A stretch of DNA of 64,000 nucleotides, from NCBI RefSeq assembly GCF_022808815.1, contig NZ_JAKZLC010000001.1:744001-808000 (forward strand). The letters run 5' to 3'. The translations under genes were made by a program, and so were the position numbers. Under the pieces are notes generated by a model, which did not search any database, was not told the origin of the DNA, and was given only the letters and a program-made list of their open reading frames with translations. Below are positions 6,026 to 12,173 of the stretch, one piece after another (position 1 is the stretch's first letter; every line of letters begins with the position of its first letter). The stretch is from Geothrix paludis. Lineage in GTDB: Bacteria; Acidobacteriota; Holophagae; Holophagales; Holophagaceae.

Positions 6026-6236
6026 GGCTCGAGAGGGCGCCGACCCACTCGGGCGGGATTCGAACTGCGCCCGGCTTTGCCAGACGTTAGTCTCGCTTCG
6101 GGTTTGAGAAGAGGCGACGAACCCACTCTCGCGGGATTCGAACCGCACCCGGCTTCGCCGGGTGCCGGCCTTCTGCGGCGCGACATCTAGTCGCGCCTCG
6201 AAGTCCACTCGCAGGTTCGAATCCCGCAGGGATTCA
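6026..6236. repeat. Periodic tRNA T-arm-like repeats downstream of tRNA-Thr
   Basis: The T-arm core TTCGAA occurs at 6059, 6137 and 6216, then at 6293 in the genuine tRNA-Thr: spacings 78, 79 and 77 bases, close to one tRNA length. Units around 6026-6087 and 6099-6164 align on the minus strand through GGTTCGAATCCCGC, GAGTGGGT and a preceding hairpin. That hairpin is perfect in one copy (GCACCCGGC/GCCGGGTGC) and wobble-paired in the other (GTCTGGC/GCCGGGC). The copy at 6204-6236 is in the opposite orientation and abuts the palindrome at 6238. None folds as a full tRNA. They look like decayed tRNA tails or a structured repeat. Confidence 0.7.
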
Positions 6237-6237
6237 C

Positions 6238-6279
6238 TCCAACGAAAAGGCCCCTGCGCGCAGGGGCCTTTTCGTTGGA
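6238..6279. terminator. Perfect 42-bp palindrome at the 3' end of tRNA-Thr
   Basis: The two 21-base halves are exact reverse complements. The stem includes AAAAGGCCCC/GGGGCCTTTT, so either strand yields a GC-rich hairpin followed by T-rich sequence. It overlaps the encoded CCA of tRNA-Thr (6276-6278) and should terminate the tRNA transcript reading leftwards. On its left edge sits an inverted T-arm fragment, extending the symmetry. Confidence 0.8.
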
Positions 6280-6351
6280 GCCAACTACAGGATTCGAACC
6301 TGCGACCTGCTGATTACGAATCAGCTGCTCTACCAGCTGAGCTAAGTTGGC
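6276..6351 (-). tRNA. tRNA-Thr (anticodon CGT)
   Basis: The minus strand reads as a complete 76-base cloverleaf: acceptor GCCAACT/AGTTGGC, D-loop AGCTGGTAGA, anticodon stem GCTGA/TCAGC with loop TTCGTAA (anticodon CGT, decoding ACG), T-arm GCAGG-TTCGAAT-CCTGT, discriminator T and encoded CCA. It lies between a prolyl oligopeptidase gene and its own palindromic terminator. Confidence 0.97.
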
Positions 6352-6391: not shown

Positions 6392-8533
<2,142 letters not shown>

Positions 8534-8618: not shown

Positions 8619-10733
8619 TCAGGGGGTCTTCATGCGCAGGTTCTTCACGAGGAAGGCCAGCACATCGGCCCGCTCTTCGATGACCTTGGCCGTGGGCTTG
8701 CCTGCGCCATGACCCGCGCTGGTCTCGATGCGCGTGAGGATGGGCGCGGGACCCGCCTGGGCCACCTGGAGCGTGGCCGTGAACTTGTGGCTGTGGGCAG
8801 GCACCACGCGGTCGTCGTGATCACCGGTGGTGATGAGCGTGGGCGGGTATTTCACGCCGGGCTTGATGGTGTGCAGGGGCGAGTACTTCATGAGGGTCTC
8901 GAAGCCCTCCTTCGTCTCGCTGCTGCCGTAGTCGCTCTTCCAGCCCCAGCCCAGGGTGAACTTGTGGAAGCGCAGCATGTCCATGACGCCCACCTCCGGC
9001 ACCGCGGCGCCGAAGAGGTCAGGCCGCTGCGTGAGGCAGGCGCCCACCAGCAGGCCGCCGTTGCTGCCGCCGTTGATGGCGAGCTTCGGCGTGGAGGTGA
9101 CCTTGTGGGCGATGAGCCACTCGGCGGCGGCGATAAAGTCGTCGAAGACGTTCTGCTTCTTGTCCTTGCGGCCCGCGTCGTACCACTCGAGGCCGTACTC
9201 CCCGCCGCCGCGGAGGTTCGGCATGGCGTAGACGCCACCCATTTCCAGCCAGACCATCCGCGAGACGGAGAAGGCGGGTGTCAGTGACACGTTGAAGCCG
9301 CCGTAGCCGTACAGCAGGGTCGGGTTCTGGCCGTCGAGCTTGATCCCCTTCTTGTGCACCAGGAACATGGGGATCTTCGTGCCGTCCTTGCTGGGGTAGA
9401 AGACCTGCTCCACCTCGTAATCCGCGGGCTTGAAGGCCACCTTCGGCGCGCGGAAGACAGTGCTCTTGGTGGTCTTCAGGTCCAGGCGGTAGATGGTTCC
9501 GGGGTAGGCGAAGCTGCCGAAGGTGTAGAAGGTCTCGGTGTCCTCGCGCCGCCCGCCGAAGCCGGTGACCGTTCCCAGGGTGGGCAGGGTCAGCGCGCCG
9601 GCTTTCTTCCCCTTCATATCATAGAACTCCACGGCGGAATGGGCATCGCGCATCCAGGTGGCCACGAAGCGGTTCCCCACGAGGGAGACGGATTCCAGCA
9701 CATCCCGGCCCTTAGCCTGGGGGATGATCTCGGTCCAGTTGGCGGGTTCGGTCTGGCCCTTCCGGATGGCCACCAGGCGGTTGCGGGGCGCGCCCTGGTT
9801 GGTGACGACGAAGAAGCGGTCTCCTTCGTTGTCGACCACGCTATAGGTGGCATCCATGCGGTCCAGGAAGGGCTCCACGGGGCTGCCGGGCTTCGTGAGG
9901 TCCTTGAGGAACAGGCTGGTCTCGGGGTTGGTGCCCTTGTTCCCGGTGATGACGAGCCAGCGGCCGTCATCCGTGACCGTGCCACCGAGGTACCACTCGG
10001 GCTGGTCCGGGCGCTGATAGATGAGCGCGTCCTCGGACTGGGGCGTGCCCAGCTTGTGAAAGTACAGCAGGTGGTTGTTGTTCACGCCCGTGAGCGCTCC
10101 GCCTTCCTTCGGGGCCTCGTATCGGCTGTAGAAGAAGCCGCTGCCATCCTTCAGCCAGGAGGCGCCGCTGGCCTTGGACCAGCGGATCTCGTCGGAGAGG
10201 TCCTTCCCGGTGGCCACGTCCCGCACCTTCCAGGTCTGCCAATCCGAGCCGGCCACGGAGACGGAATAGGCCATGAGGCCCCCATCCTCGGTGAAGCTCG
10301 CGCCGCTGAGGGCCACGGTACCGTCCTTGCTCAGGGTATTGGGATCGAGGAGCACCCTTCCCTTCGCCTTGGGGTCTTCCGTCACGTACAGGACCGACTG
10401 GTTCTGGAGGCCGGTGTTGTAGGAGTAGAAATAGCGACCGCCCCGCTTGAAGGGCGCAGTGAACTTCTCGAAGTCCCAGAGACGGGTCATGCGCTCCCGG
10501 ATCGTCGCCCGCTGGGGAATCTGGGCGAGGTAGGCGAAGGTGACCTTGTTCTGGGCTTCCACCCAGGCCTTGGTCTCGGCGCTACTGTCGTCCTCCAGCC
10601 AGCGGTAGGGATCGGCCACCTTGGTGCCGAAGAAATCATCCACCACGTCGCCTTTCCGGGTGAGCGGATAAGTCAGGGGAGTCTGGGCGGATAGGGCGGT
10701 GGTGATGGCGAGGGCCATGGGAAGGATCCTCAT
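8619..10733 (-). CDS. Secreted prolyl oligopeptidase (S9A), copy 2
   Basis: The mature protein is 704 residues from ATG 10733; the open frame runs ~140 codons further upstream, but that part lacks similarity and would overlap the divergent PhoH gene. The N-terminus (MRILPMALAITTALSAQ) is a signal peptide. Propeller and hydrolase domains follow as in copy 1, with the active-site serine in NGGSNGG (Ser557), acid in TTGDHDDRVVPAHS and His in SAGHGAGKP. Sequence identity to copy 1 is high in the hydrolase domain and lower in the propeller, where the substrate filter lies. Confidence 0.94.
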   Translation of the reverse strand: MRILPMALAITTALSAQTPLTYPLTRKGDVVDDFFGTKVADPYRWLEDDSSAETKAWVEAQNKVTFAYLAQIPQRATIRERMTRLWDFEKFTAPFKRGGRYFYSYNTGLQNQSVLYVTEDPKAKGRVLLDPNTLSKDGTVALSGASFTEDGGLMAYSVSVAGSDWQTWKVRDVATGKDLSDEIRWSKASGASWLKDGSGFFYSRYEAPKEGGALTGVNNNHLLYFHKLGTPQSEDALIYQRPDQPEWYLGGTVTDDGRWLVITGNKGTNPETSLFLKDLTKPGSPVEPFLDRMDATYSVVDNEGDRFFVVTNQGAPRNRLVAIRKGQTEPANWTEIIPQAKGRDVLESVSLVGNRFVATWMRDAHSAVEFYDMKGKKAGALTLPTLGTVTGFGGRREDTETFYTFGSFAYPGTIYRLDLKTTKSTVFRAPKVAFKPADYEVEQVFYPSKDGTKIPMFLVHKKGIKLDGQNPTLLYGYGGFNVSLTPAFSVSRMVWLEMGGVYAMPNLRGGGEYGLEWYDAGRKDKKQNVFDDFIAAAEWLIAHKVTSTPKLAINGGSNGGLLVGACLTQRPDLFGAAVPEVGVMDMLRFHKFTLGWGWKSDYGSSETKEGFETLMKYSPLHTIKPGVKYPPTLITTGDHDDRVVPAHSHKFTATLQVAQAGPAPILTRIETSAGHGAGKPTAKVIEERADVLAFLVKNLRMKTP

Positions 10734-10841
10734 GCGGTGGTCTCCAAACGGGCTGACATTCTCCCACCAACGAAAGGCCCATTCCCAGCCGTGCATGGCC
10801 GGCCGCTTGGTGGTAGGCTCCGGCCAGCCCTGGAGGTCTCT

Positions 10842-12173
10842 TTGGTCCCACCATCCAGCAAGAAAGTCTTCGTCCTGGATACGAACGTCCTCCTGCACGA
10901 TCCGAACTCGATCCTCCACTTCCAGGAACACGATGTGGTGCTGCCCATCGTCGTCATTGAGGAGATCGACCACTTCAAGAAGGACCAGACCGAGATCGGC
11001 CGGAATGCCCGGACGATCTCCCGCATGCTGGACAAGCTCAGGGCCAGCGGCAGCCTCAGCCGCGGCGTGCCCCTGGGCGACGGTGGCTCCCTGAAGGTGG
11101 ATGTGGAGAGCCACCCCCTGGACCTCGGCATCCTCCGCGAGGACAAGCACAAGGCCGACAACCAGATCCTGGCCTGCGCCAAGCAGCTCCTCGGCACGTC
11201 CAAGGAGAAGGTGGTCCTCGTCACCAAGGACACCAACCTCCGCATCAAGGCCGATGCCATCGGCATCCTGGCCGAGGACTACACCACGGACCGGGTGGAG
11301 ATGGATGAGCTCTACTCAGGCCACAAGAGCTGGGAGGTGGATCCGGCCCAGGTGGATCTCCTCTACGACGGCGGCCTCCCGCCTGACCCGGAGTTGCACC
11401 TCCAGCCCAACCAGTTCGTCACCCTGGTGGACCACTCCAACCCCAGCCACACCGCGCTGGCCCGCTTCATGGCCGGCGAAGCCCTTCTCCGGCCCATGCG
11501 CCGCGTCGAGGCCTATCCCTGGGGGATCAAGCCCCGAAACCGCGAGCAGCAGTTCGCCATGGAGCTCCTGCTGGATCCCACGGTCCAGGTGGTCACCCTG
11601 GTGGGCAAGGCCGGCACCGGCAAGACCCTGCTGGCCATCGCCGCGGGCCTGCAGCAGGTGGTGGATGACGAGGCCTACGACAAGATCCTGGTCAGCCGGC
11701 CCGTCATGCCCATGGGACGCGACCTGGGCTACCTGCCCGGGGACGTGGGCGAGAAGCTGCGGCCCTACATGCAGCCCATCTACGACAACCTCGAGTTCAT
11801 CGTGGCCGCCAACACCGAGGCCCGGCGCCGCAGCACCATGACCGCCGGCCAGCTGGAGGAGGCGGGCTACCTCAGCGTGGAACCCCTCACCTACATCCGG
11901 GGCCGCAGCATTCCCAAGCAGTACCTCGTGGTCGACGAGGCCCAGAACCTCACGCCGCACGAAGTGAAGACCATCCTCACGCGCGCGGGGGAAGGCACCA
12001 AGGTGATCTTCACGGGCGATCCGTATCAGATCGACAATCCCTACGTGGATTCCAGCACCAACGGCCTCAGCTTCCTCGCGGACCATTTCAAGCACCTCGA
12101 TGTATCCGGCCACGTCACCCTGATGAAGGGTGAGCGCAGCAAGCTGGCAGAATTGGCGAGCAACCTGCTCTAG
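10842..12173 (+). CDS. phoH: PhoH-family ATPase with N-terminal PIN domain
   Basis: From TTG 10842 the product is 443 residues. An N-terminal PIN ribonuclease domain begins at once (FVLDTNVLLHDPNSI, later IEEID and VTKDTNLRIKA acidic residues). The PhoH ATPase domain follows, with Walker A GKAGTGKT at about residues 255-262, a Walker B/DEAQ block YLVVDEAQNLTPHE and the arginine-containing TGDPYQIDNPY. This PIN-PhoH layout is that of YlaK/PhoH2-type RNA-unwinding nucleases. TTG is chosen because GGAGG ends 5 bases upstream and the known family starts right here; a longer in-frame GTG start would overlap the divergent promoter region. Confidence 0.92.
   Translation: MVPPSSKKVFVLDTNVLLHDPNSILHFQEHDVVLPIVVIEEIDHFKKDQTEIGRNARTISRMLDKLRASGSLSRGVPLGDGGSLKVDVESHPLDLGILREDKHKADNQILACAKQLLGTSKEKVVLVTKDTNLRIKADAIGILAEDYTTDRVEMDELYSGHKSWEVDPAQVDLLYDGGLPPDPELHLQPNQFVTLVDHSNPSHTALARFMAGEALLRPMRRVEAYPWGIKPRNREQQFAMELLLDPTVQVVTLVGKAGTGKTLLAIAAGLQQVVDDEAYDKILVSRPVMPMGRDLGYLPGDVGEKLRPYMQPIYDNLEFIVAANTEARRRSTMTAGQLEEAGYLSVEPLTYIRGRSIPKQYLVVDEAQNLTPHEVKTILTRAGEGTKVIFTGDPYQIDNPYVDSSTNGLSFLADHFKHLDVSGHVTLMKGERSKLAELASNLL

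Follow-up and report, generated by a model that had tools for sequence, protein, structure and literature searches.

The rtT repeats behind the E. coli tyrT gene are tandem, non-coding units that carry copies of a tRNA 3' end. Integrases that target tRNA genes regenerate the tRNA 3' end and displace the old one; what such integration usually leaves behind is a direct repeat that extends to the 3' end of the tRNA. MITEs and CIMEs (the latter cis-mobilised integrative remnants) have no ORF, end in inverted or direct repeats and are presumed to be mobilised in trans. In E. coli, the transcripts of tyrT and further tRNA operons release the rtT RNA (PMC4986893). Among the sites that integrases are known to use is the T-loop together with the adjoining stem (Williams 2002, as cited in PMC2647930). 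REPs and BIMEs are palindromic extragenic repeats that are short, dispersed, often clustered and located downstream of genes (PMC3733652), and template switching between inverted repeats makes and maintains hairpins (PMC8794818).

Here we describe short non-coding elements, about 95-200 bp long and rich in palindromes, which form a family confined to the Holophagaceae and are nested within the 3' tails of tRNA genes. The starting point is a locus behind a tRNA-Thr gene in a 64-kb stretch of Geothrix DNA, which is called the window below. Among open-licence papers, no description of such repeats in Geothrix was found.

The locus behind tRNA-Thr

The original prediction had listed four copies of the hexamer TTCGAA in T-arm-like settings, spaced at close to one tRNA length and ending in a tRNA-Thr gene. 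The copies are found at exactly 6059, 6137, 6216 and 6293, with spacings of 78, 79 and 77, and the last one is the T-loop of a genuine tRNA-Thr gene (Table 1). The window contains 10 TTCGAA against 5.6 expected in shuffles, and four of these fall within 240 bp, far more than chance would place there. Although the spacing was measured correctly, it is incidental to an element of 94-98 nt and a truncated second unit. Instead of four local units, the locus holds one element and part of another, and it belongs to a family found at many tRNA genes.

TTCGAA is its own reverse complement and conceals orientation, and because of this the original prediction overlooked that the copies do not all point the same way. 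The plus strand reads GATTCGAAC at 6059, 6137 and 6293 (T-loop on the minus strand), so that these three are indeed oriented alike, but GGTTCGAATCCCGC at 6216, where the T-arm is inverted relative to the others. Perfect 14-nt inverted repeats lie at 6131-6144 and 6214-6227, and 6209-6229 is 90% complementary to the T-arm of tRNA-Thr at 6285-6305. The inverted arm matches its tRNA at 16 of 16 positions. The proposal that the T-arm-like pieces originate from the adjoining tRNA, or are copies of parts of it, was right.

Table 1. Features behind tRNA-Thr, in coordinates of the window
Feature	Position	Strand	Basis
tRNA-Thr, anticodon CGT; host gene and source of the copied T-arm	6276-6351	-	ARAGORN; Rfam RF00005, 72.6 bits
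Perfect palindrome, 44 bp, two 22-nt arms; takes in the 3' TCCA of tRNA-Thr	6237-6280		repeat analysis
Inverted copy of the tRNA-Thr T-arm (tRNA positions 47-62), GGATTCGAACCTGCGA; left end of element	6209-6224	-	match to own tRNA, 16/16
Hairpin 1, GG-A-CTTC-GA-GGCGCGAC TAGAT GTCGCGCC-GCA-GAAG-G-CC; G/A-rich internal loops	6167-6206	-	folding, covariation
Hairpin 2, GCACCCGGC GAA GCCGGGTGC (minus strand), perfectly paired	6145-6165	-	covariation
Direct T-loop copy, TTCGAATCC (tRNA positions 54-62); right end of element	6134-6142	-	tracks host T-loop
Whole first element, family A	6131-6224	-	covariance model R1, 104.2 bits, E 2.8e-20 (one of the 15 training sequences of R1)
Second unit, truncated: right half of hairpin 1, hairpin 2, T-loop copy	6053-6124	-	direct repeat, 80% identity; weak R1 match, E 0.092

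Read 5' to 3' on the minus strand, the tRNA is followed by a palindrome, noticed before at 6238 and perfect over its whole length, which is a probable bidirectional terminator. Between genomes its sequence diverges and its palindromy stays perfect. A short spacer leads to the inverted T-arm, and GT separates the latter from hairpin 1. The loop of hairpin 1, of the TAGAT type, is conserved; its upper helix is 99.1% paired among 131 sequences, and both sides change in 6 of 8 pairs. Hairpin 2 is 93.9% paired in the same set, again with both-sided change in 6 of 8 pairs. At this locus the repeat holds only positions 54-62 of the tRNA, and the match of the right copy stops at position 62. The 217-nt strand folds 5.8 standard deviations better than shuffles. 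In the second unit, which is also present in genomes G018 and G006, the counterpart of hairpin 2 pairs with G-U. One perfect stem and one with G-U had thus been correctly described, but both are hairpins inside the element, not tRNA stems.

The TTCGAA cores and a spacing close to tRNA length had suggested decayed tandem tRNA genes, a reading that we now find hardly credible and have rejected. No unit forms a cloverleaf or matches a tRNA model (between 5900 and 6400 only tRNA-Thr is matched by the tRNA covariance model, even at E up to 5), one T-arm is inverted, and the hairpins are conserved. A cmscan search with all Rfam families brought no unit to the gathering score, and membership of a known RNA family was likewise rejected, as the sub-threshold matches look like chance matches to palindromes. 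The comparison with the repeats of E. coli tyrT was apt in kind, but does not extend to a match with the Rfam RtT model. Beside the locus, at 6392-8533 and 8619-11150 on the minus strand, lie two adjacent, mutually similar long ORFs that by eye resemble S9 prolyl oligopeptidases.

Elements in the tails of Holophagaceae tRNA genes

Scattered copies turned up in the genome of the window and in its genus when these were searched at the DNA level. The covariance model R1 for these elements (family A) was built from 15 copies and applied to one genome per species. Matches were obtained in 39 of 41 genomes of the genus Geothrix and, overall, in four genera of the Holophagaceae (Geothrix and three sister genera), and none in 16 other genomes of the class or in 137 genomes of the phylum outside the family. 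All 13 named contigs in a DNA-pattern scan were assigned to Geothrix, Holophaga, Holophagaceae or unplaced Acidobacteria bins. In a small sample of three genomes from outside the family, none of 25 tRNAs had the inverted T-arm plan.

Nearly all of the about 115 R1 matches examined either lie 10-90 nt 3' of a tRNA gene, on its strand, or follow a copy so placed as a further tandem unit. Host genes of family A are those for Thr, Pro, Arg, His, initiator Met, Asp and Asn tRNAs. The order is the same throughout the family: tRNA, palindromic probable terminator, inverted T-arm, two to three covarying hairpins, direct T-loop copy. Tandem iteration is frequent, and in some elements the right T-loop copy runs on as a complete displaced tRNA 3' end to CCA. 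In a sister genus, one copy is embedded in a tRNA array, and at its end the acceptor end of the upstream tRNA-Pro is repeated. In the genome of the window, 16 of 45 tRNAs have their own T-arm or T-loop region in inverted form within the next 150 nt, at a fixed threshold near the 99th percentile of the null; most flagged scores lie above it.

Where no tRNA is nearby, the match is mostly preceded by a displaced 3' fragment of a tRNA (Pro, His, initiator Met), of the kind that genomic islands leave when they take over the gene. Displaced fragments together with elements mark island insertions at loci L149, L155, L164, L170 and L176, and at L246 with L029, the hosts being tRNA-Pro, His, initiator Met and Thr. 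In genome G002, a displaced tRNA-Thr tail lies 13 kb away from the gene.

Conservation of the stems in close relatives had been named beforehand as a test, and the stems are conserved by compensatory change. In an alignment of 131 distinct sequences, which was fitted to R1, 92.9% of cells are paired, 26 of 31 pairs change on both sides, and 595 cells are double-changed, compared with 183 ± 19 in shuffles and at most 106 in slid structures; an independent alignment of 15 sequences gave 29 against 10. Helix covariation exceeds the controls, as in a structured element, be it RNA or ssDNA. Covariation alone cannot tell RNA hairpins from DNA hairpins.

Some copies carry additional parts. The loop of hairpin 1 contains a second-hairpin insert of ~65-70 nt at L021 and L027 (tRNA-Thr, genomes G015 and G033) and at L237 (tRNA-Pro CGG, G032). 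The insert, CTCTCCACCTGACGCATCC...GTGGAGCCTCT or a variant, is similar across genomes and tRNAs; it is a repeat within the repeat, and its point of insertion is fixed. Others, including L003, L057, L166 and L231, have a third hairpin (..GGCC..GGCC..GATCCAGCGTC) between inverted T-arm and core. L101 (G009, contig C40, about 18.2-18.5 kb) is a pair of head-to-head elements within a perfect palindrome that reaches far into both flanks, possibly an assembly artefact.

A second architecture is present at Ser, Phe, Cys and Leu-CAA genes. Its inverted copy spans the acceptor end to the T-loop, its core differs from that of family A, and its right end copies the tRNA from T-loop position 57 to CCA (20/20 at Cys, Phe and Leu). 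Elements of this architecture with other cores occur in two sister genera. In the genome of the window, tRNA positions 57-76 are duplicated with 20 of 20 matches at Cys, Phe, Leu-CAA and initiator Met. At these four genes, and at tRNA-Thr of genome G003 (23/23), the repeat contains the 3' end of the upstream tRNA, as in rtT, in the form of a direct repeat from T-loop to 3' end; most family A copies retain only 9 nt. Genome G002 carries two units at tRNA-Cys, with a perfect 47-nt repeat that starts precisely in the T-loop; the related genome G032 carries one. Deletion between direct repeats would account equally well for the single-copy states at Cys and at Arg-TCT.

Origin of the elements and of their match to the resident tRNA

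Both terminal copies match the resident tRNA specifically. Among 84 first elements, which are not independent events owing to the common ancestry of related genomes, the inverted arm agrees with its own tRNA at a mean of 14.62 of 16 positions, against 12.79 ± 0.10 after reassignment of the tRNAs (0 of 2000 trials as high). For the right copy the agreement with tRNA positions 54-62 is 8.65 of 9, against 7.93 ± 0.05 in shuffles (0 of 2000). The agreement persists within single isoacceptors whose T-arms vary from species to species: the Arg-CCG T-loops GATTCC, GAATCC and GACCCC are each mirrored by their own element, and the same holds for three Pro-TGG and two His T-arms. Beyond position 62 the match of the right copy vanishes, except in the complete 3' end at tRNA-Thr of G003. 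The complement of the acceptor, between terminator and inverted arm, is mostly lost, whereas the T-arm complement farther out is kept; the acceptor complement is weakly tracked (5.89 of 10 nt, against 5.41 after reassignment, 0 of 1000).

Homologous cores are found behind different tRNAs, and the core has therefore moved. The nearest neighbour of a core was located behind the same tRNA of another genome in 50 of 84 cases and in the same genome in only 1 of 84, which gives no support to recent spread within genomes. Since cores group by tRNA and not by genome, the spread between tRNAs probably took place before or early in the radiation of the genus. From then on, we infer, the core was mostly passed on at its existing sites, where losses, truncations and tandem changes occurred. 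Apparent empty sites at tRNA-Thr in G002 and G032 were considered as well; they fit island insertions that replaced the tRNA tail, and therefore have little bearing on insertion of the element.

Our preferred reading, held tentatively and with a probability of roughly 45%, is that these are tRNA-tail mini-elements of the Holophagaceae that were anciently spread by T-loop recombination and are now mostly inherited vertically. A non-autonomous integrative mini-element would have spread between tRNA genes via recombination inside the T-loop, each event regenerating the tRNA 3' end and displacing the old one. The spread would be mostly ancient, and copies would now be inherited with the tRNA as tandem units are gained and lost. 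The match to the tRNA may be kept by the T-loop identity required in the sites, helped by template-switch correction between the inverted repeats. The analysis revealed neither a recombinase for this element nor an excision product or an autonomous relative. Tyrosine recombinases occur in all genomes checked, including one without family A matches, and therefore none of them is implicated; nor was a recombinase specific to element-bearing genomes singled out. Most right copies of family A lack an intact tRNA end behind them, so that the tRNA would be destroyed on excision. Standard integration at tRNA sites offers no evident role for the inverted arm, which the integration model leaves unexplained. 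A bolder version, an ORF-less mobile unit that retargets itself by copying the T-arm (inverted left end) and T-loop (right end) of each new host, seems to us improbable; if true, the element would carry the address of its current host gene and could repair the tRNA that it entered.

Alternatively, the element might be a structured host RNA of the rtT kind. Read-through past the terminator would yield a transcript in which the inverted arm pairs with the T-arm, perhaps as a fail-safe or regulator of tRNA output, or a processed spacer RNA would act alone. The strong covariation and the long residence at the same tRNA genes are in keeping with this possibility, as is in silico folding, in which a transcript with the inverted arm refolds acceptor and T-arm of the tRNA into one very long hairpin, and the rtT RNA of E. 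coli tRNA operons is a precedent (PMC4986893). Still, the probable terminator stands before the element, some tRNAs in each species and some species lack it, tandem, truncated and decayed copies are common, and the covariation fits hairpins in DNA just as well. We consider a host RNA possible but doubtful.

Neither mobility nor function would be needed if tandem duplication of tRNA tails were combined with template switching during replication. Such switching makes and maintains hairpins and their compensatory changes (PMC8794818), the terminator palindromes are perfect although diverged, and the weak tracking of the acceptor complement points the same way. However, if copying ran contiguously from the terminator hairpin, the acceptor should be the first part to be corrected, and it is the acceptor complement that is largely lost between two matched blocks, with the T-arm farther out matching closely. 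Mutation by itself also leaves the homologous cores behind unrelated tRNAs unexplained, and we regard it as an unlikely full account. Like REPs and BIMEs moved by a RAYT (Y1) transposase, the elements are short, palindromic, extragenic, tandem and downstream of genes. This origin is nevertheless very improbable: the elements are restricted to tRNA tails, and a Y1 transposase is lacking in 6 of the 7 genomes checked, most of them element-bearing.

Significance and comparison with known systems

An undescribed folded element ends about a third of the tRNA genes in the genome of the window, and many across the genus. If recombination keeps the match to the tRNA, this would be a new way for a mini-element to exploit tRNA genes; if RNA pairing does, a new layer of tRNA control; and if template switching does, a clean natural system in which to measure it. 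Covariation in such DNA palindromes calls for careful reading, and the element can confuse the prediction of island boundaries at tRNA genes.

The Geothrix elements resemble REPs and BIMEs in being short, dispersed palindromes, often clustered, downstream of genes, but differ by their location in tRNA tails, by ends copied from the host tRNA, and by having no RAYT in most genomes checked. With MITEs and CIMEs they share the lack of an ORF, terminal repeats and presumed mobilisation in trans, but their terminal repeats are not fixed and follow the resident tRNA, and no parent element is known. At the genes where it is complete, the T-loop-to-CCA direct repeat, with a putatively regenerated tRNA and a displaced 3' end, resembles the T-loop-class att sites used by tyrosine integrases; in contrast to these, the elements measure only about 100-200 bp, encode no integrase, add an inverted T-arm and are probably inherited vertically for the most part, and the crossover is putative. 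Like rtT of E. coli tyrT, they are tandem non-coding repeats behind a tRNA with copies of its 3' end. They differ from rtT by the inverted T-arm, by a covarying core common to many tRNAs, and by the match of each element to its own tRNA, features that to our knowledge have not been described for rtT.
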